Shown piece after piece: positions 7,481 to 61,998 of a DNA stretch of 64,000 bases. Source of the stretch: Zea mays (Eukaryota > Streptophyta > Magnoliopsida > Poales > Poaceae); the NCBI RefSeq assembly GCF_902167145.1, contig NC_050098.1, positions 10,188,501 to 10,252,500 of the forward strand, in the 5' to 3' direction. The position numbers were made by a program, and so were the translations under genes. Under the pieces are notes generated by a model. The model made no database searches, was not told where the DNA came from, and saw only the letters and a list, made by a program, of their open reading frames with translations. Numbering within the stretch: the first letter of the stretch is position 1; every line of letters starts with the position of its first letter.

Positions 7481-7764
7481 CCGTGATCCGTTCCTCGAGC
7501 GGCTCGCGCACGCGCAACGGCCGCCCCGCCAACCACTCGCCCCGTCGCATTAACTCCGCGGCAGGACAGGCGGCGCTTCTGGCAGGAGAAGCGGGCAACG
7601 CTTCGCCTTCGCCGAAATAACCGCGCCAAAAAAGGTACGCCGCGTCGTTTCGATTCCGTATCCTTTTCGTTTTTTCCTCTTTCTCTATCTCTTGCAACAG
7701 GGACCGCGAAAGGGGGATACCCCGAAAAGGATCCTTCCCCGTGAAGGAACCAGGCTCCGAGCCT

Positions 7765-8689: not shown

Positions 8690-8705
8690 GAGGCTCGGGG
8701 GCTAC
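8690..8705 (+). other. Polypurine tract of element Y
   Basis: GAGGCTCGGGGGCTAC directly precedes the TGTCGGGGACC start of the 3' LTR, the position of the plus-strand primer. The A element has the same tract. Confidence 0.6.
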
Positions 8706-36082: not shown

Positions 36083-38950
36083 TCAATCCAAGTTATGCGA
36101 ATCTAAGACATTTAGCTCACTACGCAGCCTGCAAAAGGTCTTCTCATCTAGAGGCTTGGTAAAGATATCGGTTAGCTGGTTCTCGGTGCTAACATAAAAC
36201 ACTTCGATATCTCCCTTTTGCTGGTGGTCTCTCAAAAAGTGATGCCGGATGTCTATGTGCTTTGTGCGGCCTTGTTCAACAGGATTGTCCGCCATGCGGA
36301 TTGCACTCTCATTGTCACATAGGAGTGGGACTTTGCTCAGATTGTAGCCAAAGTCCCGGAGGGTTTGCCTCATCCAGAGTAGTTGCGTGCAACACTATCC
36401 TGCGGCAACGTACTCGGCATCAGCGGTGGATAGGGCAACGTAGGTTTGTTTCTTAGAACTCCAAGACACCAGGGACCTTCCTAGGAATTGGCACGTCCCT
36501 AATGTACTCTTCCTATCGACCTTACATCCAGCATAATCGGAGTCTGAATATCCAATTAAGTCAAAGGTAGATCGCTTTGGATATCAGATCTCGAAGCAAG
36601 GTGTAGCAATTAAATATCTAAGGATTCGCTTAACGGCCACAAGGTGACACTCCCTTGGGTCGGATTGAAATCTAGCACACATGCATACGCTAAGCATAAT
36701 ATCCGATCTACTAGCACATAAATAAAGTAAAGACCCTATCATAGACCGGTATGCCTTTTGATCAACAGACTTACCTCCTTTGTTGAGGTCGACATGTCCA
36801 TCGGTTCCCATTGGAGTCTTTGCGGGCTTGGCGTCCTTCATCCCAAACCGCTTGAGCAAGTCTTCCGTGTACTTCATTTGAGAGATGAAGGTGCCGTCCT
36901 TGAGTTGCTTCACTTGGAACCCAAGGAAGTAGTTCAAATCGCCCATCATCGACATCTCGAATTTCTGAGTCATCACCCTGCTAAACTCTTCACAAAACTT
37001 TTGGTTAGTAGAACCAAATATTATGTCATCGACATAAATTTGGCACACAAATAGATCGCCATCACAAGTCTTAGTAAAAAGAGTTGGATCGGCTTTCCCA
37101 ACCTTGAAAGCATTAGCAATTAAAAAGTCTCTAAGGCATTCATACCATGCTCTTGGGGCTTGCTTAAGTCCATAGAGCGCCTTAGAGAGCTTACACACAT
37201 GGTCAGGGTACCGTTCATCCTCAAAGCCAGGGGGTTGCTCCACGTACACCTCCTCCTTGATTGGCCCATTGGGGAAAACGCTCTTCACGTCCATTTGGAA
37301 CAACCTGAAAGAATGGTGAGCAGCATAGGCTAACAAAATACGAATTGACTCGAGCCTAGCCACAGGAGCAAAAGTCTCCTCAAAGTCCAAACCTGCGACT
37401 TGGGCATAACCTTTTGCCACAAGTCGAGCCTTGTTCCTTATCACCACCCCGTGCTCGTCCTGTTTGTTGCGAAACACCCACTTGGTTCCCACAACGTTTT
37501 GCTTGGGACATGGCACCAGTGTCCAAACTTCATTTCGCTTGAAGTTGTTGAGCTCTTCCTGTATGGCCAACACCCAGTCCGGATCTAGCAAGGCCTCTTC
37601 TACCCTGAAAGGCTCAATAGAAGAGACAAAAGAGTAATGCTCACAAAAATTAGCTAATCTAGAGCGAGTGGTTACTCCCTTTCTTATGTCACCCAAAATC
37701 TGGTCGACGGGATGATTCCTTTGAATCGTCGCTCGAACTTGAGTTGGAGGGGCCCGTGGTACTTCTTCCTCCTCAACTTGGTCTCCTTGTGCTCCCCCTT
37801 GATCACACGCCTCCTCTTGAGGAACCTGTTCACCATCTTGAGTTGGGGGGTGCACCATTGTTGAAGAAGAAGGTTGATCTTGCTCCTTGTGTTCCTGTGG
37901 TCGCACATCTCCAATTGCCATGGTGTGAATTGTGTCCGTTGGAACAGCATCCTCATCTACATCATCAAGATCAACTTGCTCTCTTGGAGAGCCATTAGTT
38001 TCATCAAATACAACGTCGCTAGAGACTTCAACCAAACCCGATGATTTGTTGAAGACTCTATACGCCTTTGTATTTGAGTCATAACCTAACAAAAACCCTT
38101 CTACAGCTTTGGGAGCAAATTTTAAATTCCTACCTTTCTTCACTAGAATGTAGCATTTACTCCCAAAAACTCGAAAATATGAAACGTTGGGTTTGTTACC
38201 GTTTAATAGTTCGTATGACGTCTTCTTGAGGAGGCGATGAAGGTAGACCCGGTTTATGGCGTGGCAAGCTGTGTTCACAGCTTCCGACCAAAACCGCTCG
38301 GGCATCTTGAATTCTCCAAGCATCGTCCTCGCCATGTCTATAAGTGTCCTGTTCTTCCTCTCTACCACACCGTTTGGCTGTGGTGTGTAGGGAGCGGAGA
38401 ACTCGTGCTTGATTCCTTCCTCCTCAAGAAACTCCTCCACTTGAAGGTTCTTGAATTCGGACCCGTTGTCGCTTCTATTCTTTTTCACTTTGAGCTCAAA
38501 TTCGTTTTGAGCTCGCCTTAGAAAGCGCTTGAGGGTCCCTTGGGTTTCTGATTTATCCTGCAAAAAGAATACCCAAGTGAAGCGGGAAAAATCATCAACA
38601 ACAACAAGACCATACTTACTTTCCCCGATGTTAAGGTAGGCGACGGGTCCGAAGAGGTCCATATGCAGTAGCTCCAGAGGTCTTGATGTAGTCATCGCAT
38701 TCTTGTTGTGATGAGCGCTTCCCACCTGTTTACCTGCTTGACAAGCTGCACAAGGTCTATCTTTTTCGAAAAACACATTTGTTAGACCTAACACATGTTC
38801 TCCCTTCAGAAGTTTGTGAAGGTTCTTCATCCTAACATGTTCTAGACGGCGATGCCATAGGCAGCCCATGCTAGTCTTAGCAATTAAGCATGCATCTAGG
38901 CCGACCTCCTCCTTCGAAAAATCAACTAAATAGAGTTTGTCGTCTAGTAC
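36083..38950 (-). pseudogene. Pol of element B: integrase, RT, RNase H, with two stops
   Basis: One minus-strand frame from the A insertion point to the natural end at 36083. It includes the pre-integrase zinc region ([12 protein letters not shown] ... CAACQAGK); integrase pieces [17 protein letters not shown] and PNGVVERKN; a long Gln/Glu/Pro-rich linker; RT with [22 protein letters not shown] and YVDDIIFGS; then RNase H with CDNESAIRMA. TGA at 36586-36584 (in place of Trp) and TAG at 36397-36395 (in place of Gln) both fall in RNase H. The apparent start in the first 243 bases beyond 38950 belongs to the LTR of element A. Confidence 0.9.
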
Positions 38951-40339
38951 TGTCGGCGTTTCGACCCCGGGGGGTCCCTGGACCAACGAGTAAATTGTTG
39001 CTGCATGTCCCAGCCTAGATGGGTCGGCGCGAGACGGAGACACAAGGGGGGGGGGGGAACAGTGAGGGGAAACCCGCGGCCTCGTGTTGTCCTGCGCCCA
39101 GGGCAGATGCGCTTGCAGTAGGGGGTTACAAGCGCTCGTGAGGGAGAGAGAGAGACAGGGGGCATTAGGCTGCCCGTTCTCCCGCGCGGCCACCTCCTTC
39201 GTATGAGAGCCCTGGACCTTCCTTTTATAGATGTAAGGAGAGGGTCCAGGTGTACAACGGGGGGTGTAGCAGTGTGCTAACGTGTCTAGCAGAGAGGAGC
39301 TAGAGCCCTATGTACGTGCCAACGTGGCTGTCAGAGAGGTGTTGGAGCCCTGTTCATGTGGCGTCGTGGCCGTCGGAGGAGTGCTTGAGCCCTGTAGAAG
39401 CACAGCTGTCGGGGCTGTCGGATCCTTGCTGACGTATCCTTGCTTACGTAGGGGGCTTAGAACCATCGTTGTCATGGAGCACGCGGGGTGCCATCATTAC
39501 TTGTTTTACCGGGGCGAGCCAGATGGGACGCCGGTCTTGTTCCCCGTAGCCTGGGCTAGCTAGGGGTAGGGTAATGATGGCCTCCCCTTGTGGCATGGTC
39601 GGCCCGAGCGAGGTGGTGACTCCTTCGAGGTCGAGGTCGAGTCCGAGCCCTGGGGTCGGGCGAGGCGGAGACCTTCTTCCGAAGTCGAGGTCGAGTCCGA
39701 GCCCTGGGGTCGGGCAAGGCGGAGACCGTCTTCCGGAGTCGAGGTCGAGTCCGAGCCTGGGGGTCGGGCGAGGCGGAGATCGTCGTCCGAGTTGAGGTCG
39801 AGTCCGAGCCCGGGGGTCGGGCGAGGCGGAGATTCCTATGGCGCCCGAGGCTGGGCTTGGTTGCTGTCAGCCTCACCCTGGCGGGTGGCACAGCAGTCGG
39901 AGCAGCACAGGCGGCGCTGTTTTCCTGTCAGGTTAGTCAGTGGAGGGGCGAAGTGACTGCGGTCACTTCGGCGTTGTCGACTGGAAAGCACGCGTCAGGA
40001 TAAGATGTCAGACGATCCTTGCATTGAATGCTCCTGCGATCTGGTCGGCGATCGAGGCGATCTGGCCAAGGTTGTTTCTCTGTGAAGCCTACTCGAGCTG
40101 GGCCTCAGGCGAGTCGAAGGTGCGCCCGTTGCTTGAGGAGACCCTCGGGCGAGGCGTGAATCTGCCTTGGTCTTCCGTTCCTGCCCGAGGCTGGGCTCGA
40201 GCGAGGCGAGACCGAGTCCCTTGAGTGGGCAGAGCCTTAACCAGAATTGCGCCCATCAGGCCTTTGTAGCTTTGTGCTGATGGGGGTTACCAGCTGAGAT
40301 TAGGAGCCTTGGGGGTACCCCTAATTACGGTCCCCGACA
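38951..40339 (-). repeat. 3' LTR of element A (1389 bp)
   Basis: Minus-strand ends TGTCGGGGACC ... AACGCCGACA. A tandem array of about 50-bp units (GAGGTCGAGTCCGAGCCC) lies at 39611-39835 and is one unit shorter than in the partner LTR. A TATA box is near 39224-39236. Confidence 0.9.
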
Positions 40340-40355: not shown

Positions 40356-41428
40356 AAAGGGAGTGTGGGTACTCGCTTGGAGGCTTTGTCGCACTTTTTT
40401 GCAAGGGGACCGGCCTTTCTTGGTTGCATTTTGTTCCGGTGGGTGCGCGCGAGCGCACCCGCCGGGTGTAGCCCTCGAGGCCTCGGAGCAGTGGTTTGAC
40501 TCCTTCGAGGTCTTAATGCCTTTCGTGATGGCTCGGCCGGTCTGGTCGTTCCCTCATGCAAACTGGTCGTTGCCCGGGTGCATAGTCAGGTTCCGAGTTC
40601 TCGGGCTGGTATGTTGACGCTGTCAATGGTTTGGCCGGAGCCGGGTTTGCGAGAGCAGCCCCCGAGCCTCTTCACAGGGCGAGAGGACGGTCAAGGGCAG
40701 ACTCGGCTTTTTTTCATACGCCCCTGTGTCGCCTTTCCGCAAGGAGGAGGGGGGAAAGCGCCATGTTGCCCTCGGCGGGCGCCGAACATGGTGTCTCCAG
40801 TGAGCTGCTAACGGGTGATCCGAGTGGACGCACGTGCCCCGTTCGATAAGGGTCGGCTAGTGGCCCAGAGGCGCGCTCCAAAAGTACCTGCAGGTGATTT
40901 GCCGGACCCGGTCCCGTTCGATAGGGTCCAAGGGCTCGAGGTCTTCCTCTGATGGGATTCCGTTACAGAATCGTTCCTGCTGGTCTCGGAAATGTCCTAG
41001 GGTACCTCGAGAGCGTAGCCCGAGCCTTGGTTATGTATCGAACGTACCCAGAGTCATCCCTCACTCTGCGTGCTCTGGGGCGACTGTCGAACCCGTCGGG
41101 ATGCCAGCCTACGAACCCCTGATCAGTAGTGGGCGCGGAGCCCGAGTGGCCTGAGGCGGCTATCGAACCCTTCTGAGGGGCCAGCCTTCGAACCTCTGAC
41201 CAGCAGTGGGCGCGGAGCCCGAGTGCTTTGAGGCGGCTGTCGAACCCTTCCGAGGGGCCAGCCTTCGAACCTCTGATCAGTAGGGGGCTCAGGGCCCGCT
41301 TCCTTCGCGGAGAAGGATCCCTTTCGGAGTATCCCCTTTCCTGGTCCCTGTAGCAAGAGAGAGAAAGGGGAAGAGGAAAAGGATACGAAATTGAACGACG
41401 TGGCGCACCTTTTTTGACGCGGTCATTA
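40356..41428. other. Noncoding 3' region of element A next to the LTR
   Basis: Inverted counterpart of Y positions 7630-8690. It includes the tandem repeat of about 70 bp (41085-41290). For the plus-strand gene that starts beyond it, this stretch would be promoter and leader. Confidence 0.5.
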
Positions 41429-44400
41429 TGGCGGAGGTGAAGCGTCGCCCGCTTCGCCTGTCAAAGGTGTCGCCTGTCCTGCTGCAGAGTTAATGCGACG
41501 GGACGAGTGATTCGCGGGGCAGCCATTGCGTATGCGCGAGCCGTTCGAGGAACGGGTGTTTCGCCTTCGAATTTTGGATTTCGCGGCGGGTTCGGTGTGC
41601 CAGCAAGCCGTTTTATGTGGGCGCTCCTGCATCACTATGGGGTGGAGCTGCACAACCTTAGCCCCAACTCCATCGTGCAAGCGGCCATCTTCATGGCGGT
41701 TTGCGAAGGATATTTCATATTTGGGGATTGCCCCCCACTGGGATCTGTGGACTCATCTCTTCTCCGCGGAGCCCTTTGCCTCGGCGACGGGGGAGAAGGG
41801 AGTCTGCATGGCGGTGCGGGCCGGTGGCTGCATCCTTCAGTTGAGGCAGGCGCGTGCGCAGCGCTACATCCCTGCCATCCTTGTGTCTTCGAACAAGGGG
41901 TGGCAGCGCAGGTGGTTTTACCTCCGGAATGACGACGAGGGGCTCTCGTTGTTTTCTCAACGAGTGTGACTGCCGCCGGTAGCCATTGGCGCTATGGGGC
42001 CCCGCGCGAGAGGCAGAAGAATCTCCAGCCCCTTCTGGAGGCCTTGGAGAAGCTGCGAGAGGGAGGGCTCACTGCCGCGGGGGTGGTTGCCGCCATCCAT
42101 CGCCGGAGGGTGCTCCCCTTAATGGAGCAACGACTGCTACTTTCGGAGATGACGCCCGGGGTCGGCTTGGAGGGTTCACAGATGTCCTCGGTCCCCCTCC
42201 CCGCCGATGACCTCCACAAGCGGGTGGCCGGTACGGTAGGGAAGCTAGACACCAGCGCCCTCACCCAGCTCCCGATGCGTCCTGAGTGCGGGTGCATGCT
42301 CCGGGTGAGTGTCCGCTCCTTCTTCTTTCTTGTGTCGGATTGCCCCTGGTTCTCACAGTCGAGACCTTTCGTTCGCCTCCAGGAGCTGGGGCCTCACAAG
42401 CCTTCCCTGCCACTTGTCCCGGAGGACGCGGTGGACCAAGCCGCGCGGAGGGTTGCTACGGAGAGGAAGAAGGAGAAGAAAGACGCGAAGAAGGCTCAGG
42501 CCCGCGAGCGGATGCGGGCTCGGGACGCCTTGGAGAAGCGTTGTCGGCGGCAGGAGAGGGATGGGCTCCTAAGGGAGCCGTCGCTAGAGACGCCTGATGA
42601 TGACGACGACGACGATGATGATGAAGACGACGACATGGCCGCCCGCCTTGGCCTCGGCCCGAATCTGAGGCTGGGCCAGGGGTCGTCGAGCCAGCCCCCG
42701 AGTGGGCCGACACTGTCGGTATCCGGGGCGGGGGCGTCAGGGTCCCGACCCGAAGAACAGGGGCAGGCCGAGGGGGTACTTGACCCCTTGGCCCAGGTAG
42801 CTGAGGTGACCCCGGGGAGTCAGGTCGTCCCACCTGCGCCCCTAGAGCCGTTGTCCGTGCCGACAGCAGAGGAGGCCGATCCTCTGGTTGCCGTGTCCGC
42901 GCCTAGGCGGACCGTCCCTTCGACGCCCTGGGCGCCCGAGGCAGGATGGTGCCGAAGCCGGCAGCGGGGCAAACCTTGGTGGCGCCCGCGGAGGCCGAGG
43001 CTCGAGGGGCCTCCCCGCAGGCACGATTGGTCGTGGCCCGGAGTGGGTAAGTATCTGGGGGCACTTCTGTCCCGACGCCTTCTTCATGTGCCCTGATCTT
43101 GCTTTTCCCTTTCTTCCTAGCAAACGGAGGCACGGTTTGACCGTTTTGGCTCCCCGAAAAGCCCTCAAGACGGTGTCAGCTTCTGTAGCTGGTGTCGCAC
43201 CGGGCCTCGGCGGCCGGCTGGCCTCTGCACAAGGTGCCCCCGAGCAGGGGGTTCAGGCGGCACAAGTTGCCGTGGGGCGAGCTCCCGAGGCTGACCCCTC
43301 CGTCGAGGCAGCCATCGAGACGAGGGAGACTGCCAGCGCGGCCGCGACTTTGAGCCCACCAGTCGTGTTGCCGGTGCTGGCACCGGCTTCTACCGAGGCT
43401 GTAGCTGCTCCAGCTGTGATGCCACCCACCACCGCCGATGCTGAGATGGCCGAGGCGCCGCTACTCGAGGCCAGCGATCGGAAACCTGTCCCCTTAGCCA
43501 AGGAGGTTCCCTACGCGCCGACTACAGGGGGTGCCGATGCCTTGGAGAAGGGGGCGCAGAACCGCGGCCCGTCCTAGGGAGGGGCGACCTCGTCCTTGCG
43601 CAGCGAGGTCCCAGCGAGCGGCGTCGGCCGCTCCAGTTCTAGGCCCGTGGTGCTTCGAAACCCCTCTTCGTTCTTGACGATGAGAGAGAGGAGCAGTCTT
43701 GGGGCGAGCTTCGCGAGCGTGCCGAGGCAACGGTGGGGTCGCTTCGGTCGACCTTGGAGGTCCTTTCTAGGGACGTTCCCAGGATCCTCCAGGTAAGGAT
43801 TTCAGGCATACCTTTCACGTGACCAAGGCATTCTTTATGACATCCCACTTCCCTTCCTCAGGATCTGACGAATCTGAGCGCCGCCAAGTCATCGTTCATT
43901 CACCGCGAGGCCGACATCTAGGGTTCGCTGCGGTTTCTGAGGGCCGCGCTTGCCAAGGCTACCGAGCGCCTCTCCCAACGAAGCGCCAAGGCGGCGGACC
44001 TCCGTTTGCTCCGTGACGAGATGGGGGAAGAGGCAGCGGCGGGACGCGCAGAGGCGCGGCGGTGACAGTCGGAGCTTGGCCAGGCCATCGGTGAGCGGGA
44101 TCAGTCTCGGGGTCGGGCCGCCGAGGCTAAAAGCCGGGCTGAGGCCCTTGGGGGCCAGTTAGTCAAGGCGTCTGCTCGGGCCGGAGCCCTTGCGGCGGAC
44201 CTGGCCATGGCCATCGGGTCTGCTCAGTCCGCCCAAGCCACAGCCTCGGAGCAGCGGATCCGTGCGAAAGGTATGTCTTGGCTGTTTTGAGGTTTTGATT
44301 TAGCTTCACTCTTTAGCTTGTGTTTGAAGACATCTGCTTTGGCTGTTTGCAGAGCTTGAGTTTGCCCTCAGTGAGTCCGCCAAGGCACTTGCCCAGGCGA

Positions 44401-44849
44401 TTGAGCTGAAGGAGGCCGACCGCGCGGCCATGTCCGAGGCTATCTCGGCCTTTTGCCAGATCTTTGGCCTTGACGACGTCCCCTCAGGAAGCTCCCCTCA
44501 GAGTCGCCTGCAGGCCTTGGGCAACCACGCGCGTGGCCGACTCCGTGAGGTGCTGCATCACGGTGTTAGGCGGGCCTTCGCCGTGCTCGCTTCCCACTAT
44601 GATGTGGATCTGGAGCGGGTCAGCAAGGGGTATTGCCTTCCCGATGAAGACGAAGCTGCCCTGGCTGAAGTTTAGAGGCTTGACGCGGCCGCCGCGGGCC
44701 TGAGCGCGGTGCTGGCGTCCACTTTCGAGGTGGAGATCCTTCCGCCTGTGCCGCCGTCCGAGGCTGGGGCGGGTCTTGCCGAGGGTGGAGACGGCGCAGA
44801 GGTCGGAGATGAAGCCGAGGGTGCCGCTCCTCCCCCGGGCGATGCTTGA
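41429..44849 (+). pseudogene. Antisense multi-exon gene inside element A (putative gypsy-type transposon domain)
   Basis: Runs opposite to element A between its pol and 3' LTR. Likely exons: about 41507-42304, 42383-43046, 43121-43792, 43862-44270 and 44353-44849, separated by four short introns with GT...AG ends (GTGAGT, GTAAGT, GTAAGG, GTATGT); across the second intron the frame continues only after splicing. The N-terminal part (FGVPASRFMWALLHHYGVEL, then SNKGWQRRWFYL) fits the Pfam family called putative gypsy type transposon (PF04195). A Lys/Arg/Glu helix, an Asp run, an Ala/Pro-rich linker and a coiled-coil C-terminus follow. Damage: a 7-bp insertion near 41720, a lost base near 41966, a frame change near 42900-42946, and stops near 43575 and later. 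Start codon uncertain. Confidence 0.7.
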
Positions 44850-45315: not shown

Positions 45316-48207
45316 TTAAGGGTAGAAGCGACGTAGCTGTCGGATGTTCCAAGCGTTGCTGTAGACCTCGCCTTGACTGTTGGCCAGCTTGTATGTTCTG
45401 GGCTTCAGAATCTTGGCGATGATGAACGGCCCTTCCCAGGGAGGTGTGAGCTTGTGGCGCCCTTGGGCGTCTTGTCGTAGCCGAAGCACCAAGTCGCCCA
45501 CCTAGAGGTCTCGGGACCGAACCCCTCGGGCGTGGTAGCGTCGCAGGGACTGCTAATACCGCGCTGAGTGTAGTAAGGCCATGTCCCGAGCCTCTTCCAG
45601 CTGGTCCAGTGAGTCTTCTCGGTTGGTTCGATTGCTTCGATCATCGTACGCCCTCGTCCTCGGGGAACCATATTCTAAGTCTGTGGGCAGGATAGCCTCG
45701 GCCCCATAGACTAGAAAGAACGGTGTGAAGCCCGTGGCTCGGCTTGCCGTTGTCCTCAGACTCCAGACCACCGAGGGGAGTTCCTTCATCCATCGCCTGC
45801 CGAACTTGTTGAGGTCGTTGTAGATCCTCGGCTTGAGCCCCTGTAGAATCATGCCGTTGGCTCGCTCTACCTGCCCATTTGTAATGGGGTGAGCTACGGC
45901 GGCCCAGTCCACCCGGATGTGGTGGTCCTCACAGAAGTCCAGGAACTTTCTTCCAGTGAACTGGGTGCCGTTGTCGGTGATGATGGAGTTCAGGACCCCG
46001 AAGCGATGGATGATGTTGGTGAAGAACGCCACCGCCTGTTCGGACCTGATGCTGTTTAGGGGTTGGACCTCAATCCACTTGGAGAATTTGTCGATGGCGA
46101 CCAGCAGGTGCGTGAAGCCCCCGGGTGCCTTCTGCAAGGGACCGACGAGGTCCAGACCCCACACAGCAAACGACCAGGTGATGGGTATTGTTTGCAGAGC
46201 CTGAGCGGGCAGGTGGGTCTGCTTTGCGTAGAATTGACACCCTTGGCAGGTGCGTACAATCCTAGTGGCGTCGGCCACCGCGGTCGGCCAGTAGAAACCC
46301 TATCGGAAGGCGTTTCCCACGAGGGCCCGAGGTGCTGCGTGGTGACCGCAAGCCCCCGAGTGTATTTCTTGCAGTAACTCTTGACCTTCGGCGATGGATA
46401 TGCATCGTTGGAGGATGCCTGAGGGGTTGCGGTGGTAGAGCTCTTTTTTGTCACCCAGCAAGACGAACGACTTGGCGCGCCGCGCCAGTTGCTGAGCTTC
46501 GGCTCTGTCGAGGGGTAGCTCTCCTTGGTGGAGATATTGCAGGTATGGGGTCTGCCAGTCTCGATTAGGCGTGACCCTGTTCCGCTCTTCCTCGACGCGC
46601 AGTGCCTCACCCTCGGGGGCCAAGGGTGCCTCGGGCGGGACCGAGGCTGCCTCGGGCTGGGCCGAGGGTGCCTCGGGCAGAGCTGAGGTCTTCTTGGGCT
46701 CGGGCGTGTCGTCGGTCTTGATGGAGGGTTGATGTAGGTCTCGGGAGAAGACGTCCGGAGGAACCGTTGTCCGCCCCGAGGCTATCTTAGCTAGCTCGTC
46801 CGCAGTCTCGTTGTATCGTCGAGCGACGTGGTTGAGCTCGAGCCCGTAGAACTTGTCCTCCAGGCGCCGAACCTCGTCGCAGTAGGCTTCCATCTCCGGG
46901 TCGCGGCAGTGGGAGTTCTTCATGACTTGGTCGATGACAAGCTGCGAGTCACCCCGAGCGTCAAGGCGTCGGACCCCTAGCTCGATGGCGATGCACAACC
47001 CGTTAACCAGAGCCTCGTACTCGGCCATGTTGTTGGACGCCGGGAAATGGAGGCGCAGCACGTAGCGGAGGTGCTTCCCGAGGGGTGAGATGAAGAGCAG
47101 GCCCGCGCCCGCTCCTGTTTTCATCAGCGACCCGTCGAAAAACATGGTACAGAGTTTCGTTTGGATCGGAGCTGCTGGAAGCTGGGTGTCGACCCATTCA
47201 GCCACAAAGTCCGCCAAGACTTGGGACTTGATGGCCTTCCGAGGGGCGAACATGATTGTCTCACCCATGATCTCCACCGCCCACTTTGCAACCCTACCCG
47301 AGGCCTCTCGGCATTGGATGATCTCCCCCAGGGGGAAGGATGACACCACAGTCACCGGATGAGACTCGAAGTAGTGTCGCAACTTTCGCCGTGTCAGAAT
47401 CACCGCGTACAGCAGCTTCTGAATTTGCGGGTAGCGGATCTTGGTCTCGGACAGTACCTCACTGATGAAGTAAACCGGCCTCTGGACGGGCAGTGCGTGC
47501 CCTTCTTCTCGTCTCTCGACCACGATCGCGGCGCTGACCACCTGAGTGGTGGCGGCGACGTAGATCAAGAGGGTTTCTCCGGTAGTGGGGGGCACCAGGA
47601 TGGGCGCGCTTGTAAGGAGCGCCTTCAAGTTTCTGAGGGCTTCCTCGGCCTCGGGGGTCCAAGTAAAGCGCTCGGTCTTCCTTAAGAGGCGATACAGAGG
47701 CAGGCCTCTTTCGCCGAGGCGTGAGATGAAGCGGCTCAAAGCCGCAAGGCATCCCATGACCCTCTGTACTCCTTTCAAGTCCTTGATAGGCCCCATGTTG
47801 GTGACGGCCGTGATTTTCTCCGGGTTGGCCTTGATGCCCCGCTCGGAGACGATGAAACCCAAGAGCATGCCTCGGGGGACTCCGAAGACACACTTCTCGG
47901 GATTGAGTCTTACGCCTTTCACTTTGAGACACTTGAATGTCGTTTCAAGGTTAGAGAGGAGGTCGGAGGCTTTCCTCGTCTTGACTACGATGTCATCGAC
48001 GTAGGCCTCGACCGTTCGACCAATGTGTTCTCCGAACACGTGGTTCATGCACCTTTGGTATGTCGCACCCGCATTCCTCAAACCGAATGGCGTGGTAACG
48101 TAGCAGTACATGCCAAAGGGTGTGATGAAAGAAGTCGCGAGCTGGTCGGACTCTTTCATCCTGATTTGGTGATACCCTGAGTAGGCATCGAGGAAAGACA
48201 GGGTTTC
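45316..48207 (-). pseudogene. Pol of element A after the C insertion: RT to integrase, three stops
   Basis: One minus-strand frame, the counterpart of Y 1748-4552. It has RT with YVDD (near 47990), a first RNase H, an archaeal-type RNase H with FFDGS and AEYEAL (near 47015-47150), and integrase with TDNGTQFTG and NGQVERAN (near 45860-45990), ending at TAA 45318-45316. TAG codons at 46302-46300, 45555-45553 and 45504-45502 break it; the Y copy has Gln at all three positions. The 5' part lies beyond element C. Confidence 0.9.
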
Positions 48208-49848
48208 TGAAAGGGAATTAGGCTTACACATAGTTTCTAAATAATTTTGGTGGTTGAATTGCCCAACACAAATAATTGGACTAACTAGTTTGCTCTAGTG
48301 TACAAGTTATACAGGTGCCAAAGGTTCACACTTAGCCAATAAAAAGACCAAGTATTGGGTTCAACAAAAGAGCAAAGGGGCAACCGAAGGCACCTCTGGT
48401 CTGGCGCACCGGACTATCCGGTGTGCCACCGGACAGTGTCCGGTGTACACCGGACATGTCCGGTGCACCAGAGGACTCCAACTCAAACTCATCACCTTCG
48501 GGAAAATCCAGAGGCAACTCCACTATAATTCACCGGACTGTCCGGTGTACATCGGACAGTGTCTGGTGCTCCAAGAAAGAGCGGCCTCACGAACTCGCCT
48601 GCTTCGGGAAACTGGAACGGCTGCTCCGCTATAATTCACCGGACATGTCCGGTGTACACCGGACTGTTCGGTGTAACTGTGGGGCAACGACTACTTCGCG
48701 CCAACGGTCACCTGCAACAGCAATTAATGCGCGCCAGAGCGCGCAGAAGTCAGGCACGCGCGTAGCGGCGCACCGGACACTCTACAGTACATGTCCGGTG
48801 CGCCACCGGACATCTAGGCGGGCCCAGCAGTCAGAGCTCCAACGGTCAGAACCCTAACGGTCGGGTGACGTGGCTGGCGCACCGGACATGTCCGGTGTGC
48901 ACCGGACTGTCCGGTGCACCATGCGACAGACAGCTTTCACCAACGGCTAGATTTTGGTTGGTGGCTATATATACCACCCCAACCGGCCACTTCAAGGTGT
49001 GGGAGCCCAAGCAACATTCCAAGTCATCTAGTTGACATACTCAAGCCCTCCCAACCACATATATTCATTGATCCATCCTATACACAAGATTTAGACCACT
49101 ACAACCAACACAAGTGCCACAAAAGAGAGAGCAAGCAAAAGAGAGCTACTCATTTGAGTTTAGCACTAGTGCCTTGTGAGATTCATCGAGAGATAGTGTG
49201 TGCTTCATCTTTGTGCTCAATTGCGCGTGGAGTTTTGACTCCCATTGAACTTCCTCCAAAGTTTTGGAGGCTTGTAAAAGCTAGCAAGAGACACCAAAGT
49301 GTGTGGTGGTCCTTGCGGGATCGAGAGTGATCCTTGAGAAGAAGAAGAGCTCGCCGATCCTTGTGTGATCGGGGGAGAGAGGGAAAGGGTTGAAAAAGAC
49401 CCGTCCTTAAGTGGACTCCTCAACGGGGACTAGGCCTTCGAGGGCCGAACCTCGGTAAAACAAATCACCTGTGTCCATTGTGTTTATTGTTTGTGATTTG
49501 TTTGTTTTCTCGTATTCTAAGTTTTTCTTGCTTCATTCTTTGCCAATATCATTTGGTGTTGCTTCAAGTTAAATTCTCATTTAGTGAAGCAACACGTTGC
49601 AAGAAAGAACTTAACCTAGTGCTCTTCTCATCTAAGGCTTCTTGCTTTGTTATTCTATAACTTATTAATTGTATTGATTTATCACTCCCGCATTATTTAG
49701 CAATACTCTTTTCAAGCAAGAACTTAGTTTGTATACTCCTAATTTTTGTATATCTTGTTCTAACCACTAATCAAGGGATCTAGTTGGGGGATAAAGTTTT
49801 AATTTTCAGGTTTCGCCTATCCACCCCCCCCCCTCTAGGCGACTTTCA
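48208..49848 (+). repeat. 5' LTR of element C (1641 bp)
   Basis: Contains dense CACCGGAC/GTCCGGTG palindromes between about 48409 and 48920. The TATA-like TATATATA at 48966-48973 follows them, so the palindromes sit in the promoter region. Confidence 0.9.
48966..48973 (+). promoter_or_regulatory. TATA box in the 5' LTR of element C
   Basis: TATATATA after GTGGC, about 45 bases downstream of the last CACCGGAC palindrome. It is identical in the 3' LTR. Confidence 0.55.
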
Positions 49849-49850
49849 AT

Positions 49851-49862
49851 TGGTATCAGAGC
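49851..49862 (+). other. Primer-binding site of element C
   Basis: TGGTATCAGAGC two bases after the LTR, the complement of the 3' end of initiator Met tRNA. Confidence 0.85.
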
Positions 49863-49897
49863 TAGGCACTTCATCTTGAGTCTAACAACTCGAAGTG

Positions 49898-51763
49898 ATG
49901 GCTCGTAAAAGATCCCAAAAGAACAAGAAGACCCAGGAGACCAAGGAGGTAACTCTTGAGATATTACTTTCCGATTGTTCTAATTATGATTCATGGTCTA
50001 CTAGAGTAATAAATGCTTTTAGAGCGGTAGATCCTCAATTAGAACAAATTTTAGTCAAGAGTATTATTCCTCCTAACTATGCTAGGGAAAATGCCTCCGA
50101 AGAAGATTTAAGATGTATACGGTTAAATTATCTAGCTTATGACATCTTAAGTAAATCCCTTAGCAAAGAAGATTATCATGCCTTCATAATAAAATATGAC
50201 AAACCCATTTGTGATGTGCATGATATTTGGACTAGAATTAAAAGCAAATTTAATAAGTCCAAACATGGTAGTTCTTTTTGTGCTTCTACTTCCTTTGGTC
50301 TTTGTGATACTAACCCTTGCAAGGAAGAACAAGAAAATGATCGATGGAGACCAAACGATGAATCCACCTCTCCAAAAGGTTTGTCTTCCCATTTCAATTC
50401 CCACATGTGTTGTGTGGCTAATACAAATGATAGCGGAAGCACAAATGAGGATGAGGAGGAAGAAAGAAGCTTTGTGCAACTCTACGCTCGCCTAAGCCAA
50501 GAAGATAAGGCGGTCATGCTCAAACTTGTAGAAAGAGCGAGAGAGCAAGGCGAAGCTCGTCAAAGGCTAGAAAGTATTCTCTCCATGAAGATGCAACACT
50601 TTGACGAGTTGACTAAAGAACATGAGGAGCTAAAGTGCTCTCATGTTGATTTGGTCCAAAGGTATGAAACTATTTCAATTGAGCAAGATAACGCTTTACA
50701 TTGTATCACTCAATTAGTAAATAGGAATATCTTGCTTAAGGACCAAGTAGAAAAGCTAAAAATTGAAAATCTAGCTTTTCAAGATAAATATGATATGCTC
50801 CTATGCTCTCATGAAAATCTTAGAGATGATCATATCATATTAAACATTGCTCATGAGGTTGTGATAGAAAACTTAAAATCCCAACAACCTCACTCATGCA
50901 CATGTATTCAAATTGATATTATATTATCATGTGCTAATGCTTGTTGTCCGTCAACAAGCAAATCTTCCTTTGAGCTAGAAGTTGCAGGAACAAATGATGA
51001 TTCATATCAAAAGCTCAAAGAAGAAAATGAGAGGCTAAAAATGAGCTTGACACAACTAAAAGGGAAGTGCATTGCTCAACCTTCTCAAGATAACCGTGAT
51101 CACATGGTGAAGAAGCTTGAGACGGGAACAACCGTGGCATGCACTACATCCCTTGAAGAAAATGTCAAGGAATTGAGGATTGCCAAGAGGAAGAAACAAA
51201 AGATGAATTTCAACACCTCCTACAAAAGCCTCAACCACGCCTCCACAAAAGGTAACATCCAAGGTAATGATCAAGCCACACTTCACATTAAGAGGTGTAG
51301 TGAATGCTTTGAAGAGGGGCACTTGATTAGGTCATGTCCCTACATTAAAAATGGCTTGATTATTAACAAGGATGATAGACTTTGTTTTAAATGCTCCAAG
51401 AAGGGACACTTACTTAGATCTTGTCCCCATTTAAAACAGAAAGGCATAGGGTTAGAAAAGGAAGTTTTTACTAACCATGTAGCAAGAAACAAACAAGGAA
51501 AGAAGAAATCTTCAAGACTTCAAAAACGTCTATGCTACACATGCCGGAAAAAGGGACATCAATGCAAGGATTGTCCCATTGGTAACAATCCCACTTCTAG
51601 CTTGTCAATTAATTCTCATGTAACTAGGCAACCCAAAATTGCAACTTGTGCTAGAAAGGTAATGAGGTTACCAAGCGCTAACACAAAGGACTTTTGGGTT
51701 CCTAGATCTTTGTTTACTAACCGTGATGGACCCATCAAGCGATGGGTACCAAAATATGCTTGA
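49898..51763 (+). CDS. Gag of element C with three zinc knuckles
   Basis: 621 codons from ATG 49898 (MARKRSQKNKKTQ) to TGA 51761-51763, undamaged. An N-terminal Copia gag region (YDSWSTRVINAFRAVDPQLE) leads into a long coiled-coil middle (about residues 200-410). Three CCHC knuckles follow: CSECFEEGHLIRSC near 466, CFKCSKKGHLLRSC near 495 and CYTCRKKGHQCKDC near 546. It ends FWVPRSLFTN...RWVPKYA, like the end of the B gag. Gag would form the particle and bind element RNA; the intact frame suggests it is still selected or very recent. One knuckle is usual for Copia gag, so three are unusual. Confidence 0.9.
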   Translation: MARKRSQKNKKTQETKEVTLEILLSDCSNYDSWSTRVINAFRAVDPQLEQILVKSIIPPNYARENASEEDLRCIRLNYLAYDILSKSLSKEDYHAFIIKYDKPICDVHDIWTRIKSKFNKSKHGSSFCASTSFGLCDTNPCKEEQENDRWRPNDESTSPKGLSSHFNSHMCCVANTNDSGSTNEDEEEERSFVQLYARLSQEDKAVMLKLVERAREQGEARQRLESILSMKMQHFDELTKEHEELKCSHVDLVQRYETISIEQDNALHCITQLVNRNILLKDQVEKLKIENLAFQDKYDMLLCSHENLRDDHIILNIAHEVVIENLKSQQPHSCTCIQIDIILSCANACCPSTSKSSFELEVAGTNDDSYQKLKEENERLKMSLTQLKGKCIAQPSQDNRDHMVKKLETGTTVACTTSLEENVKELRIAKRKKQKMNFNTSYKSLNHASTKGNIQGNDQATLHIKRCSECFEEGHLIRSCPYIKNGLIINKDDRLCFKCSKKGHLLRSCPHLKQKGIGLEKEVFTNHVARNKQGKKKSSRLQKRLCYTCRKKGHQCKDCPIGNNPTSSLSINSHVTRQPKIATCARKVMRLPSANTKDFWVPRSLFTNRDGPIKRWVPKYA

Positions 51764-54700
51764 CAAGCTTTGCAGGAAAAAGAGATGATATGAAGCCTTG
51801 GGGTGCTTGAGAGAGTCCATTCGATTCTTATCAACTCAAGCTATCAATCTTCAATGATCTATATACATGATTGACCCAAGGAAGTGAAGAGATATCATGT
51901 GCGAAAAGTCAAGACCTACAACATAGAGGAAAGTCAAAGGATGGTAACTTCTATGCTTTTAAATATCTTCAAATTTATATTACCATTCTTTGAAGAAATT
52001 TCCTCTCATATGGTAGATTGCAAATTCATCATTTCCATTCTATAGCAATCTACATGCTTTAAAATATTGCAAGTATCTCATGGCATGTTTTTCACTAAGT
52101 GTTTTATTATTGCCATGATTCTAGATATAGGGAGATATTTCATATTCTTAAAAGGATGAGGTGTCATGTAAGGAATTCTAATCCTTAGGACACTTATAAA
52201 AGGAAAACTCTCTCTATAACTAGAATAGTGAGACTATTGAGTTTATTTAAGTAACCCAAGTAGTCTCACTTGTAGAGAATATGTTTCTCTTTGGAGATGC
52301 GTAATTTAACTTAAATAGAAAAGTCAATCCAATGATTTATGTTGTTTTGCTTCTTGCTTATATTGGATATGATTCTTCTACGTTTATCGCTCTCCATGTC
52401 TTGAATTAGATTTATTCCCATAATCTTAAAAGAACTTACTATGCTTGTTCCATATGTTAAAGCATTCTTCAAGGAATAATCTAGTTCATGTTATAAAGTT
52501 TCCATGCCTTAGTAATCCACTATTCATTCCTTATCAAAATGACTACAAAAAGGGAAACTAGTGCTTGTGTTGCTATTAACATTTCTCTTAAGCTTACTTA
52601 TGAATATCTACAAAAGAGAAAGTACACAAGCCTCATGGGTTGTTCTTCACCCAAAAGAAGAAAGGTGGAAGCAAAGGTATGGGAACTCATCTTCTTAATC
52701 AAATTTAATTCCCATCTCAATGGCCATTTAATCTAAATTATCATATTCTGCCCTTGTGAGGAATAGATTCTCTATTGAACTCAAATCAACTAGATGTGCA
52801 TTCAAATCTCATTTTTTTAATGCTCATGTCCATTAGAATCTATTTAATGCCTTTGCGATATTATCATATTGATTTGCTTCCAAGTAATGATTAACTAACT
52901 TCAATATGATAAAGTAAAATCTCCAATGATTATTAAAATGCTTCAAAGGTGCTCACTCATATTTCTCAAATGAAATGCACTAATGTTAAGGATTTTACTT
53001 CATGTCTGTGTGACTTATGAATGATGAACTGTCTATATTTTCTATCTAAAGAGATCATCTTTCATCATATACTCCCTTGTGCTATTAACATCTTTCTTGA
53101 GTATTTTCAATAAGTTTGAAAGGAAAAAGAAACAACTACAAAGGGAGGATTCTCAAATGAAAGAGGAGGACATCAAGAACAACACCACCTACTTGGATAG
53201 TAAGATCTACAAAACAATCAATGGTGTGGTTGTGAGTATTCTGAACCCTTTCATAATGAGAATGCTAGGCTTAAGTTGTATATTGCAAAATTTTATAAGC
53301 CTTGATCAAGATGTATAATGCTTCTCCCTACACATCTCTAAATTAAATGCATCTATTCATCTCATTCAAATTGTTGATGCATATCTCTAGGGGGAGTCTC
53401 TTTCTATATCTTGATTATGTTGAGACTATTACTTAGTAATTTCATATAGTCTCATGCATGAGAATGAGTTTCTCATGAAGTATTCTACTTTTTCAAATCA
53501 TTATCTTTCACTCTAAAGTAGCATATTTGCTGGATTCTCCTACTCTAAGCTTAATTGACAATTTATTGTGTATATTGTTCTTTTGATCACATATGTTATT
53601 TGTTTGATCATTGAATGACTTCAATCAACAATCATGCTTCTTAGTGTCGTATATACTATCAATCAATATCTCTCTTGATATGCACTAAGTTAAAAGGAGA
53701 ATTCATGATACATTTATGCAACTTGTGATCCATTTGATATATGCTAACAATAACTTGAAAAGATCACTAGTTGTAGAACTCTCTCTTGTGCAAAATATTT
53801 CCATATATTGTCATTAAGAATAGGTCTTAAGCATCTAAGACTAAGGACAAAGCACAATGAAGAGAGCGTCCCTATGTAAAGGTACAAAAAGGTAAAACTA
53901 TCTCCTTTCATTTAAACTTGTACCTAAATCTTCCTTTTCTATACTCTCTTTACATATCTTGTTTAAAAGGAAGAGAAAGCATGTCCATGCATATCCCTGC
54001 TTCATACCTAGTTTAATTTCCCAAAATTCATTCCTACTTCAATGCATCTTTGTTGAAACTAGATGAAGTGATTTAATTGTCAAAGAGCTTAAAGCTTAAC
54101 CTTGTAACGAGGATAAGCTGTCTTTGTTCCAAAGGTGGATGGTCCTTAAGCCTCTTTGAAATCCTTAAGGGAAAATGCTTGAAATGTTTACAACATGCTT
54201 TCATAAGTGCATAAACTGTCATGAGCATCACACTTATACTATGACACAATGCACTTCACATTCCGTATAATATAGATATGTTCTCATTAACCTAATTATG
54301 TGCAATTGGCATTTAAGGCCAAAATATATGTTTCTCTCCATGCACATATTTAGGGGGAGCAATCTATGTTATATAGAATTATGATCATGCTTAATTTGAC
54401 ATATCCTTTTGATCATATCTCTTTTATGTCTATGACTAATGTGTTTTCAAGTATATTCTCATGCTTAGTCATAGGATTGAAAGGAAAATGGAGTATTCGA
54501 CAAAGACGACGCTTCCACTCAACTCCATCGGTATTATCCACTCTTTGCCGGTATTCCGCATAGTTCTTCACTTTGGTATAATCTTCACTCATATCTCTAT
54601 TTCAATTGAATATTTCAATTGTTTGCCAAAGGGGGAGAGAAAGAAAAGGGCCTATATTTCATTCTAAGTATCCGTTTTTGGCGTTTCATGCCAAAGGGGG

Positions 54701-55217
54701 AGAAAGTATTGGCCCAAAGCAAAAGGACCGCACCAAAGCAAAAGGACCGCACCACCACCCCAATTTTAAAATTAATGATTTTCAATTGGTAAATTTCAAA
54801 TTGGTATCTCTTTATGTTCTAAAGGGGGAGAAAGTAGTTCTTTCAAAATTGATATCTTAAAACCCTCTTGAACACTAAGAGGAGAATTTATTTGAGGGGG
54901 AGTTTTGTTTTAGTCAAAGGAAAAGCATTTGAAACAGGGGGAGAAAATTTCAAATCTTGAAAATGCTTCACAAAATCTTATTCATTTACCTTTGACTATT
55001 TGCAAAAGAACTTTGAAAAGGATTTACAAAAGAATTTGCAAAAACAAAACATGTGGTGCAAGCGTGGTCCAAAATGTTAAAAATGAAGAAACAATCCATG
55101 CCTATCTTGTAAGTATTTATATTGGCTCAACTCCAAGCAACCTTTGCACTTACATTATGCAAACTAGTTCAATTATGCACTTCTATATTTGCTTTGATTT
55201 GTGTTGGCATCAATCAC
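51764..55217 (+). other. 3.4-kb noncoding interior of element C
   Basis: AT-rich, with no frame above about 105 codons and no trace of protease, integrase or RT that I can recognise. Where pol should be, only unrelated sequence is found. Confidence 0.65.
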
Positions 55218-55232
55218 CAAAAAGGGGGAGAT
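53388..55232 (+). other. Multiplied polypurine tracts of element C
   Basis: AGGGGGAG-containing tracts at about 53388, 54351, 54628, 54693, 54821, 54894, 54936 and finally 55218-55232 next to the 3' LTR. Only the last is in priming position; the repetition is a Sirevirus trait. Confidence 0.7.
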
Positions 55233-58139: not shown

Positions 58140-60500
58140 CTAGCGCCGAAGCATGACGCACTCCTCAAGGGTGTGCTTGACGGGACCCTGGTGATAGGGG
58201 CACGACTCCTTGAGCATCTTGTCGAACAAGTTGGCGCCTCCGGGAGGTTTCCGAGGGTTCTTGTGCTCAGCGGCGGCGACAAGGTCTGCGTCGGAGGCGT
58301 CGCATTTCGCTTGCGACTTCTTCTTGCCCTTCTTCCTCGTGCCGCACTGAGCGGACGCTTCGGGGGCGTCATCTAGCTGGCGCCCCTGAGGCTGCTTGTC
58401 CTTCCGGAAGATGGCCTCGACCGCCTCCTGGCCAGAGGCGAACTTGGTGGCGATGTCCATCAGCTCGCTCGCCCTGGTGGGAGTCTTGTGACCCAACTTG
58501 CTCACCAGGTCGCGGCAAGTGGTGCCTGCGAGGAACGCACCGATGACATCGAAGTCGGTGACGTTGGGCAGCTCGGTGCGCTGCTTCGAAAATCGCCAGA
58601 TGTAGTCCCGCAGGGATTCTCCCGGCTGCTGGCGGCAGCTTCAGAGATCCCAGGAGTTCCCAGGGCGCACGTATGTGCACTGGAAGTTGCCGGCGAAGGC
58701 TTTGACCAGGTCGTCCCAGTTGGAGATCTGCACAGGAGGCAGATGCTCCAGCCAGGCTCGGGCGGCGTCGGAGAGGAACATGGGGAGGTTGCGGATGATG
58801 AGGTTGTCATTGTCCGTTCCACCCAGCTGGCAGGCCAGCCGGTAGTCTGCGAGCCACAGTTCAAGCCTCGTTTCCCCTGAGTACTTGGTGATGGTAGTCG
58901 GGCCCGGAACTAGGTCGGGAACGGTGCCCGTCGTATGGCCCGGCTGAAAGCTTGCGGACCGGGTGGTTCGGGCGAAGGGCTCCGATCCTCCCCGCTGTCG
59001 TAGCGTCCCCCACGCCTGGGGTGGTAGCCTCGGCGCACCCTCTCGTCGAGGTGGGCTTGACGGTCGTGGCGATGGTGCTCGTTGCCGAGGCGGCCTGGGG
59101 CCGCAGGCGCTGTGTCCCACGTGCGCCCGGTGTGGACCGAGGCCTCCCGCATGAATCGGGAAGTTGCGGCACGATGCTCTGTGGGTATCCCTGCCTTCGG
59201 GAGGCAGAGCTTTCGGCCCGTCGGACCGCGGCATCCTCCAGGAGATTCATGAGTTCTCCCTGGATACGCCGCCCCTCAGTGGTGGATGGTTCTGGCATCG
59301 CTCGGAGCAGTATTGCTGCTGCTGCCAGGTTCTGGCCGACCCCACTGGAAGTCGGGGCAGCCTTGCCCTGGCATCGTCGGCGATACGACGCTGGACATCC
59401 TGGGCCAGATGACACACTTCTCCGGCCGGTGCTCAGCCTGCCCGCTCCTGCCCGATGTTCTGCCGGAGCTGCACAAGTTGTCCTGCTTCCTCGTCGAGCC
59501 TAGCCTGCATCTCACGGATTTGCTCGAGCTGTGTGTCCTGACCCCTCGCAGGGACTGGGACCATAGCTAGCTCCCGAAGGATGTCAACGCGAGGCGCAGG
59601 CCTAGAGGGATCACCGTCCTCCGGCATACCAAGGTGGTTGCCTTCGTCGAGACCCTCTAGATCGACGTGGAAACATTCGTGACTTGGGCCACAGTCCTCG
59701 TCGCCGAGGCTGTGGCTATCATCGGAGCAATCGGAGAGTCAGTAGTCACATGCGGTCATGAAGTCCCGCATGGCTCTAGAGTTACCGTGCCCGGAGAAAT
59801 CCTAACCAGAGTCGGGCTCGTCGTCTTCCTTGGAACCCGGGGGCCCGTAGGTCGAGACGGACGTCAATCTGTCCCAGGTTGACCACATATGGTACCCCGG
59901 GAGGTTTGGATATGCCTTTATGAAAGTGTCCACCGAAGCGGGGTCGCTTGGTGGGTCGAAGCTGAATCTAAAAGGCACTGGATGGGAAACGGACGGTACC
60001 TCTTGATTAACGGACGGTGACGGAGTCATGTCGGGGACAGACTGCACCGTTATCTCAGGTACAAGGCTGACGCCCAGCAAGTCCTGCGCGAGCGTGCTGG
60101 CGTCGCCCGTCGTATGCTTGGGGTTGGCGTGTTGTGGGGAAACGACGCTCGTCTTCGTCTCAGGCGCGAGGTCAACGCCCAACGTATCCCCTGTTGGGGT
60201 GCCGATGTCGTCGACTCGCTCGACAGTCGACGAGGTGCCGCCTCCTGCTTGGCCATGCCTGCCCTGTCTCTTCCTCTGTCGGCGGGGAAGGTGACAGGAC
60301 AGACCCGGATGTCGCTCTTCCGCCATGTGGGGAAGACGTCGCCGATTCCGCCGCCGGCGGGCGGGCTGACGGCCGCCATTGTCGTTGTCGCGCGGCGAAG
60401 GAAAGAGTATCATGTCATAGCTGCCGTCGAGGGACATGAACTCGAGACTCCCGAAACGGAGCTTCGTCCCGAGTTGAAGAGGTTGCTGGAGACTCCCCAT
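58140..60500 (-). pseudogene. Gag of element A, decayed
   Basis: It starts at ATG 60500 (MGSLQQPLQLG), about 60 bases inside the 5' LTR. An acidic, Pro/Ser-rich N-terminal half is followed by a Gln/Glu helix (QLEQIREMQARLDEEAGQL). The capsid-like core is readable from about 58970 to 58200: YSGETRLELWLADYRLACQL, AARAWLEHLPP and SELMDIATKFASGQEA, then CPYHQGPVKHTLEEC. Frame changes between about 59500 and 59230, a stop after 59802, TGA at 58643-58641 and TAG at 58142-58140 disable it. Assignment rests on position and the core motifs. Confidence 0.75.
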
Positions 60501-60540: not shown

Positions 60541-60560
60541 CCCCTACCTGGCGCGCCAAC
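60541..60560 (-). other. Primer-binding site of element A
   Basis: Minus-strand TTGGCGCGCCAGGTAGGGG directly follows the 5' LTR. It is shared with element X apart from the first base. The tRNA is not assigned. Confidence 0.6.
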
Positions 60561-61998
60561 TGTCGGCGTTTCGACCCCGGGGAGTCCCTAGACCGACGAG
60601 TAAATTGTCGCTGCGTGTCCCAGCCCAGATGGGTCGGCGCGAGACGGAGACACAAGGGGGGGAAAACAGTGAGGGGAAACCCGCGGTCTCGTGTTGTCCT
60701 GCGCCCAGGGCGGATGCGCTTGCAGTAGGGGGTTACAAGCGCTCGCAAGGGGGAGAGAGAGACAGGGGCGTTAGGCTGCCCGTTCTCCCACGCGGCCACC
60801 TCCTTCGTATGAGAGCCCTGGACCTTCCTTTTATAGACGTAAGGAGAGGGTCCAGGTGTACAACGGGGGGTGTAGCAGTGTGCTAACGTGTCTAGCAGAG
60901 AGGAGCTAGAGCCCTATGTACGTGCCGACGTGGCTGTCGGAGAGGTGTTGGAGCCCTGTTCATGTGGCGTCGTGGCCGTCGGAGGAGTGCTTGAGCCCTG
61001 TAGAAGCACAGCTGTCGGGGCTGTCGGATCCTTGATGACGTATCCTTGCTTCCGTAGGGGGCTGAGAACCACTGTTGTCATGGAGCACGCGGGGTGCCAT
61101 CATTACTTGTTTTACCGGGGCGAGCCAGATGGGACACCGGTCTTGTTTCCCGTAGCCTGGGCTAGCTAGGGGTAGGGTAATGATGGCCTCCCCTTGTGGC
61201 GTGGTCGGCCCGAGCGAGGTGGTGACTCCTCCGAGGTCGAGGTCGAGTCCGAGCCCTGGGGTCGGGCGAGGCGGAGACCTTCTTCCGAAGTCGAGGTCGA
61301 GTCCGAGCCCTGGGGTCGGGCGAGGTGGAGACCGTCTTCCAAAGTCGAGGTCGAGTCTGAGCCCTGGGGTCGGGCGAGGCGGAGATCGTCGTCTGAGGCG
61401 AGGTCGAGTCCGAGCCCAAGGGTCGAGCGAGGCGGAGATCATCGTCCGAGTTGAGGTCGAGTCCGAGCCCGGGGGTCGGGCGAGGCGGAGATTCCTATGG
61501 CGCCCAAGGCTGGGCTTGGTTGCTGTCAGCCTCACCCTGGCGGGTGGCACAGCAGTCGGAGCAGCGCAGGCGGCGCTGTTTTCCTGTCAGGTCAGTCAGT
61601 GGAGGGGCGAAGTGACTGCGGTCACTTCAGCCTTGTCGACTGGAAAGCGCGCGTCAGGATAAGATGTCAAGCGATCCTTGCATTGAATGCTCCTGCGATC
61701 CGGTCGGCGGGCGAGGCGATGTGGCCAAGGTTTCTTCTCTGTGAAGCCTACTCGAGCTGGGCCTCAGGCGAGTCGAAGGTGCGCCCGTTGCTTGAGGAGA
61801 CCCTCGGGCGAGGTGTGAATCTTCCTTGGTCTTCTGTTCCTGCCCGAGGCTGGGCTCGGGCGAGGCGAGATCGAGTCCCTTGAGTGGGCGGAGCCTTAAC
61901 CGGAATTGCGCCCATCAGGCCTTTGCAGCTTTGTGCTGATGGGGGTTACCAGCTAAGATTAGGAGCCTTGGGGGTACCCCTAATTACGGTCCCCGACA
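60561..61998 (-). repeat. 5' LTR of element A (1438 bp)
   Basis: Minus-strand ends TGTCGGGGACC ... AACGCCGACA. The tandem array at about 61225-61492 has one more unit of about 50 bp than the partner LTR. TATA-like CTATAAAAGG at 60837-60828. Confidence 0.9.

Follow-up and report, generated by a model that had tools for sequence, protein, structure and literature searches.

An antisense gene with four predicted introns in a family of Retand-type retrotransposons of maize

Retroelements normally lose introns, their genome passing through RNA. A gene located on the strand opposite to the genomic RNA escapes this loss, and here we describe a candidate for such a gene in element A, a Retand/Tat-type Ty3/gypsy retrotransposon on the minus strand of a stretch of Zea mays DNA (64,000 nucleotides, contig NC_050098.1, positions 10,188,501 to 10,252,500; hereafter the window). 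Antisense genes of Retand elements have been surveyed. In the available text of that survey, antisense TRP28 open reading frames (ORFs) are reported for 97% of the Retand clusters, including maize, 104 separate antisense ORFs of 600 bp or more are listed, TRP28 is described as having no similarity outside transposable elements and is proposed to bind DNA, and the word intron is absent (Vicient, 2025; PMC11963269). The antisense gene of the maize Grande element is reported to be transcribed from its own promoter and to have a nuclear product; in the sections available, the same report considers antisense and spliced transcripts of such elements worth looking for, and suggests that the antisense RNA may itself act as a regulator (Vicient and Casacuberta, 2020; PMC7264820). 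Introns have also been described in sense GAG RNAs of triticale (PMC7765848), and antisense Ty1 RNA is described as an inhibitor (PMC12786077). Antisense PF04195 (TRP28) frames in Retand are therefore already published. In the literature searched by titles, abstract starts and passages (PMC10606437, PMC3091746, PMC12786077 and PMC7765848, the older key papers lying outside that search), no report of introns in antisense Retand-type genes, and hence of the four-intron structure described below, was recognised.

Element A is an old copy. It has a pair of long terminal repeats (LTRs) and the gypsy order of reverse transcriptase, RNase H and integrase; about 5.2 kb separate its integrase frame (45553) from the LTR (40339), within the 2.9–6.6 kb given for Retand (PMC11963269), and an antisense PF04195 ORF lies between pol and the 3' LTR. 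The antisense gene region occupies the plus strand between integrase and the 3' LTR, opposite to the orientation of gag-pol. The LTR pair and the minus-strand pol domains confirm the location assigned by an earlier note on this DNA, which had placed a spliced-looking plus-strand gene inside a minus-strand element.

Comparison of maize copies shows the exon-intron structure of this gene, its presence in two groups, purifying selection on the predicted frames of four of its five exons and a conserved TATA box. The family very probably carries one antisense gene with its own TATA-type promoter, five exons, four short spliced introns, about 1,055 codons and the TRP28/PF04195 domain in exon 1, a gene known here from DNA alone. 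As a conserved, intron-bearing antisense gene it is real; its splicing and its function are what we infer.

Exon-intron structure in two groups of maize copies

The region 41583–44849 was scanned on both strands for introns with a strong donor, a pyrimidine-rich acceptor and a length of 60–110 nt. Five candidates were found on the plus strand, namely the four introns of Table 1, which the earlier note had proposed, and 44371–44459, and none on the minus strand. Dinucleotide shuffles yielded a mean of 0.95 candidates and reached four or more in 12/500 cases. A genome search was then performed with exon 5, in which 40 of 4696 first-look candidates were scored and 39 copies besides the window were fetched. 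Thirty-two of the 39 span the whole region and enter the counts below, and seven partial copies are excluded from them. GT..AG is kept in 127 of the 128 intron cases and the GT donor in all 128; the donor hexamer does not vary among the 32 copies at intron 2 or at intron 4. The shuffle test and the conservation over 32 copies reject chance GT..AG pairs, and the four short plus-strand introns are confirmed.

No intron loss was found among the 32 full copies, nor in the seven partial copies over the stretches that they cover, in line with what copying of the element from the opposite strand would give. The claim that the introns survive retrotransposition is thus borne out. RNA polymerase II would copy the antisense strand from the gene's own promoter and the four introns would be spliced from this antisense RNA only, while the genomic RNA, running in the opposite direction, would bear them as an unspliceable complement, so that they would be handed to every new copy.

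With private indels masked across the 32 copies, exons 1–4 each have one clearly open frame: frame 0 in exon 1 (918 columns), frame 0 in exon 2 (665), frame 1 in exon 3 (676) and frame 0 in exon 4 (409). Exon 5 is open in frame 2 (497 columns including the stop). The phases of 0, 2, 0 and 1 connect only once the introns are removed, giving a total of about 1,055 codons, and the ATG is kept in 31/32 copies. The read-through frame is closed in introns 2, 3 and 4 in all 32 copies each. Intron 2 had been singled out as the one needed to keep frame; it is indeed frame-critical, but it is not the sole such intron, as intron 4 (82 nt) also shifts the frame and intron 3 contains an in-frame stop.

A second maize group was found by a search with a relative protein, in which 150 of 7958 candidates were scored. 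It shares 75–78% DNA identity with the first family over the gene and has the same junctions. Its intron 4 is 82 nt long in 22/30 copies, as in the first family, with GT in 29/30 and AG in 30/30; intron 3 is 68 nt (versus 69), with GT and AG in all eight aligning copies of the 30. In a single copy, L078, intron 1 is 83 nt (versus mostly 77–78), intron 2 is 71 nt (versus 74), and exon 1 has 918 nt, as in 20 of the 32 first-group copies. Neither L079 nor L080 matched any of the exon queries. In 22 of the 30 second-group copies (L048–L077) the region upstream of exon 4 fails to align through intron 3, reflecting a different 5' part or a rearrangement. In two of these loci, L057 and L069, which overlap, exon 5 is matched twice at a distance of about 1 kb, a local duplication.

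An antisense promoter belonging to the gene itself, as suggested before, is likely from the DNA evidence. TATATA is present 139–141 nt upstream of the ATG in eight of the nine copies holding that stretch (the ninth has one base changed), in two further copies read with upstream pieces, and at -147 in the single second-group copy read. This conserved motif likely marks a predicted RNA polymerase II promoter of the antisense gene.

Selection on the predicted reading frames

Between the two groups, divergence at codon positions 1, 2 and 3 is 0.149, 0.159 and 0.278 in exon 1, 0.175, 0.173 and 0.278 in exon 2, 0.210, 0.184 and 0.246 in exon 4, and 0.111, 0.134 and 0.254 in exon 5; for exon 4 the second group is represented by the 8/30 copies that align through intron 3. 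The introns (0.26–0.33) and the 3' flank (0.29) diverge more than the first two codon positions do in exons 1 and 5 (0.11–0.16). The ratio of nonsynonymous to synonymous divergence (dN/dS) was calculated for exons 1, 2, 4 and 5, with exon 3 left out. In the predicted frame it is 0.29 in exon 1 and as listed in Table 1 for the other three exons (six copies versus one for exons 1 and 2, five versus eight for exons 4 and 5), compared with 0.78–1.30 off frame. From these comparisons between copies, exons 1, 2, 4 and 5 are seen to be under purifying selection in their predicted frames.

The same ratios bear on the best-surviving alternative, in which the gene is spliced and coding but exerts its main effect via its antisense RNA; the RNA would pair with the genomic RNA, feeding silencing or disturbing reverse transcription, and the protein would be secondary. 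A regulatory role of antisense RNA has been proposed (PMC7264820), and the inhibitory antisense RNA of Ty1 (PMC12786077) offers a precedent, in the parts of both reports that were available. Between groups, however, dN/dS in the predicted frames lies well under 1, which points to a translated product, and we consider this alternative improbable.

Several observations weigh against a single spliced, coding gene. The splice dinucleotides alone are modest evidence, because GT and AG sites within exons are also well kept: majority exonic GT and AG sites are retained in a mean of 87% and 93% of copies, respectively, and 60/149 exonic GT and 127/208 exonic AG sites are kept in at least 31/32 copies. 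Within the first family the third codon position diverges most in each of the five exons, and still does so after masking of CpG and CHG sites, but after this masking the third-position excess of exon 2 is nearly gone (0.053, 0.055 and 0.061). The introns diverge by 0.105–0.120 between the two subgroups of this family, not above the exons (exon 3 codon position 1, 0.145). Of 61 distinct exon indels, no more than 19 have a length divisible by three, and exons 2 and 3 lack a third-position excess among the near-fixed differences. Copies that are dead and decaying after insertion would give such a weak within-family signal, and the selection argument therefore depends on the comparison between groups. 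There, too, exon 3 is little constrained (0.271/0.268/0.352 with 27% gaps; 0.281/0.226/0.288 in the other comparison), and the single second-group copy compared in exons 1 and 2 carries one stop in each of them. Frame 0 of exon 5 is also fairly open, constraint being seen in frame 2 only. Structure prediction adds no support from exon 1, for which AlphaFold failed with 40 sequences (mean pLDDT 32). Finally, the window copy and some relatives have an intron 1 that is open without a change of frame, and the same holds for intron 4, relative to exons 4 and 5, in many of the listed relatives from other groups (P0121–P0214). Spliced junctions were not seen in the 94 listed exon 4–5 relatives, inspected by eye, nor by text patterns in the 120 listed exon-1 relatives; this absence weighs little, because the entries look like predictions from DNA.

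Read-through, separate frames and capture of a host gene

The open introns bring up a second alternative, namely that the region holds several separate unspliced antisense ORFs instead of one spliced gene, which is how antisense ORFs are listed in PMC11963269, whose available text does not mention introns. Read-through of intron 1 in some copies and of intron 4 in many relatives speaks for it. In the first family the intron 1 read-through frame is open in 29/32 copies, and the window copy, with an intron 1 of 78 nt, also permits read-through. The length of intron 1, however, is 77 nt in 17 of the 32 copies, 78 in 11, 75 in three and 76 in one, thus a non-multiple of three in 18/32. Among the 120 exon-1 relatives listed from the protein database, 102 enter intron 1 and 18 stop short of reaching it; of the 102, 25 exit in the exon-2 frame, another 25 leave the intron out of frame, and 52 reach a stop or their end within it. 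Between groups, intron 1 (83 versus 78) and intron 3 (68 versus 69) change by non-multiples of three. Together with exon phases that match only after intron removal and canonical donors kept in 128/128 cases, these lengths make separate unspliced ORFs a quite unlikely explanation.

Conservation of the frame without intron removal, named by the earlier note as a finding that would count against splicing, was looked for and is overall not what the copies show, the exceptions being intron 1 of some copies and intron 4 of many listed relatives from other groups. Splicing of one five-exon gene thus need not be obligatory everywhere. In many of the relatives P0121–P0214 retention of intron 4 would lengthen the protein.

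The protein database holds 1680 relatives of exon 5 at E <= 0.001, of which the best 120 were listed. The database relatives P0001–P0334 are hypothetical proteins, nearly all from Joint Genome Institute (JGI) sets. They resemble exons of antisense genes from plant retrotransposons left unspliced, as a gene caller without introns would produce from plant DNA. Multi-exon PF04195 gene models are probably present in grass annotations.

Recent capture of a host gene fragment by this one element, which would account for introns and, if antisense, for their preservation, is rejected as most unlikely, since the introns occur in every one of the 39 other fetched copies as far as each reaches and in the second group, relatives number over a thousand, and TRP28 has no similarity outside transposable elements in the available text of PMC11963269. 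An ancient capture, before the groups split, may have occurred.

The window copy, its surroundings and comparison with known antisense genes

The copy in the window is a dead derivative that has lost its promoter and start. The gene had been thought to begin at 41429, a start that comparison with the upstream regions of other copies rejects as wrong. Up to 41595 the window sequence matches what precedes the gene in three other copies (89–96%), and homology to the gene of other copies resumes only at about 41583–41590. The sequence upstream of 41583–41590 is therefore element sequence, joined to codon ~71 by a deletion of ~387 bp that removed the ATG. The later exons have frameshifts or stops and are not open even after intron removal.

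Table 1. Positions of the antisense gene and of the parts of element A in the window
Feature	Position	Strand	Remarks
Deletion scar	41583..41595		~387 bp missing versus another copy; TATA box, leader, ATG and ~70 codons lost
Exon 1 remnant	41590..42304	+	PF04195, here split over two frames; 918 nt in 20/32 other copies
Intron 1	42305..42382	+	GTGAGT..CAG, 78 nt; GT..AG in 32/32 copies
Exon 2	42383..43046	+	between-group dN/dS 0.40
Intron 2	43047..43120	+	GTAAGT..TAG, 74 nt; GT..AG in 31/32 copies
Exon 3	43121..43792	+	frameshift and stop in window copy; little constraint
Intron 3	43793..43861	+	GTAAGG..CAG, 69 nt; GT..AG in 32/32 copies
Exon 4	43862..44270	+	heptad pattern in second half; dN/dS 0.47
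Intron 4	44271..44352	+	GTATGT..CAG, 82 nt; GT..AG in 32/32 copies
Exon 5, including stop codon	44353..44849	+	dN/dS 0.28
3' LTR of element A	38949..40339	-	paired with 60559–61998
77-bp tandem repeat, 2.9 copies	41070..41288		between 3' LTR and antisense gene
pol of element A: reverse transcriptase, RNase H, integrase core	45553..48294	-	Pfam RVT_1, RT_RNaseH_2, RT_RNaseH, RVT_3, rve
gag remnant of element A, two frames	58140..59243	-	weak Retrotrans_gag, E 4.9e-5 and 0.0042, both under the Pfam cut-off
5' LTR of element A	60559..61998	-	92.1% identity to 38949–40339 over 1444 aligned bases

The PF04195 domain expected in the antisense gene was found, with an E value of 3.3e-12 in the window copy (frame 41441–41932; a second part lies in another frame and is weak, E 0.061) and of 2.2e-22 in another copy, where it covers residues 63–128 of exon 1. 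Nine pieces of the window gene, with the last part of exon 5 and the first part of exon 4 outside the scan, contain no further Pfam family above cut-off. A sequence search of the Protein Data Bank (PDB) with exon 1 returned two matches, at E 0.89 only. The coiled coil envisaged at the C-terminus is not located there. Heptads stand out from shuffles in the second half of exon 4 alone (matched by 2/300 shuffles, versus 40/300 for the first half), and a coiled coil in exon 5 is rejected (205/300). AlphaFold models the 106 residues of exon 5 as mostly helices with modest confidence (pLDDT 71, pTM 0.33). The DNA binding proposed for TRP28 (PMC11963269) is neither supported nor contradicted by the present data.

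Within pol of element A, an element at about 48208–55532 is nested, bounded by direct repeats 7025 bases apart; it contains a zinc-knuckle gag-like frame on the plus strand (49886–51763, motif judged by eye). Element B, on the plus strand of the window (1637–9034), is 84–91% identical to element A in pol and on the LTR side. Its stretch 5333–7487 replaces the antisense gene, matching it nowhere past the end of exon 5, and includes a 338-residue frame on the minus strand (5878–6894) without a Pfam match. Window positions 1117–1221 share 99% identity with the beginning of L020, and L004 matches 1119–1747 at 75%, a further repeat adjoining these elements.

The protein of the antisense gene may possibly be a nuclear protein that regulates the element's transcription or integration or takes part in it, a role that we put forward with reserve. 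Similarly tentative is a generalisation to Retand as a whole. Its antisense ORFs might, as exons, together make up one gene of about 1,055 codons, driven by a TATA box and divided by four introns, present in at least two maize groups and perhaps widely, and kept by selection; the introns would then mark the strand, so that only the antisense RNA is spliced as mRNA and the genomic strand stays an unspliced template. Should these junctions be used, the antisense frames that surveys list singly would be fragments of one larger protein, and the call for antisense and spliced transcripts in the available sections of PMC7264820 would become a direct test, in which maize RNA reads are searched for the junctions and the TATA box given here.

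The gene shares most with the TRP28/PF04195 ORFs of Retand as presented in the available text of PMC11963269: antisense orientation, a position between pol and the 3' LTR, the PF04195 domain, frequent tandem repeats in that region, and members in maize. It differs in that those ORFs are listed separately, whereas here they appear as exons of one predicted gene. Gene23 of maize Grande (PMC7264820, likewise in part) is also antisense, located between pol and the 3' LTR and served by its own promoter, and is likened to the present gene by position and promoter, not by sequence or exon structure. A more distant parallel is HBZ of human T-cell leukemia virus type 1 (HTLV-1), an antisense retroelement gene whose RNA, according to the available part of PMC1459196, is spliced and polyadenylated, so that introns can outlast reverse transcription of the sense genome. 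HBZ RNA begins in the 3' LTR, whereas here the TATA box is inside the element and four introns are predicted, and the two proteins have no known relation.

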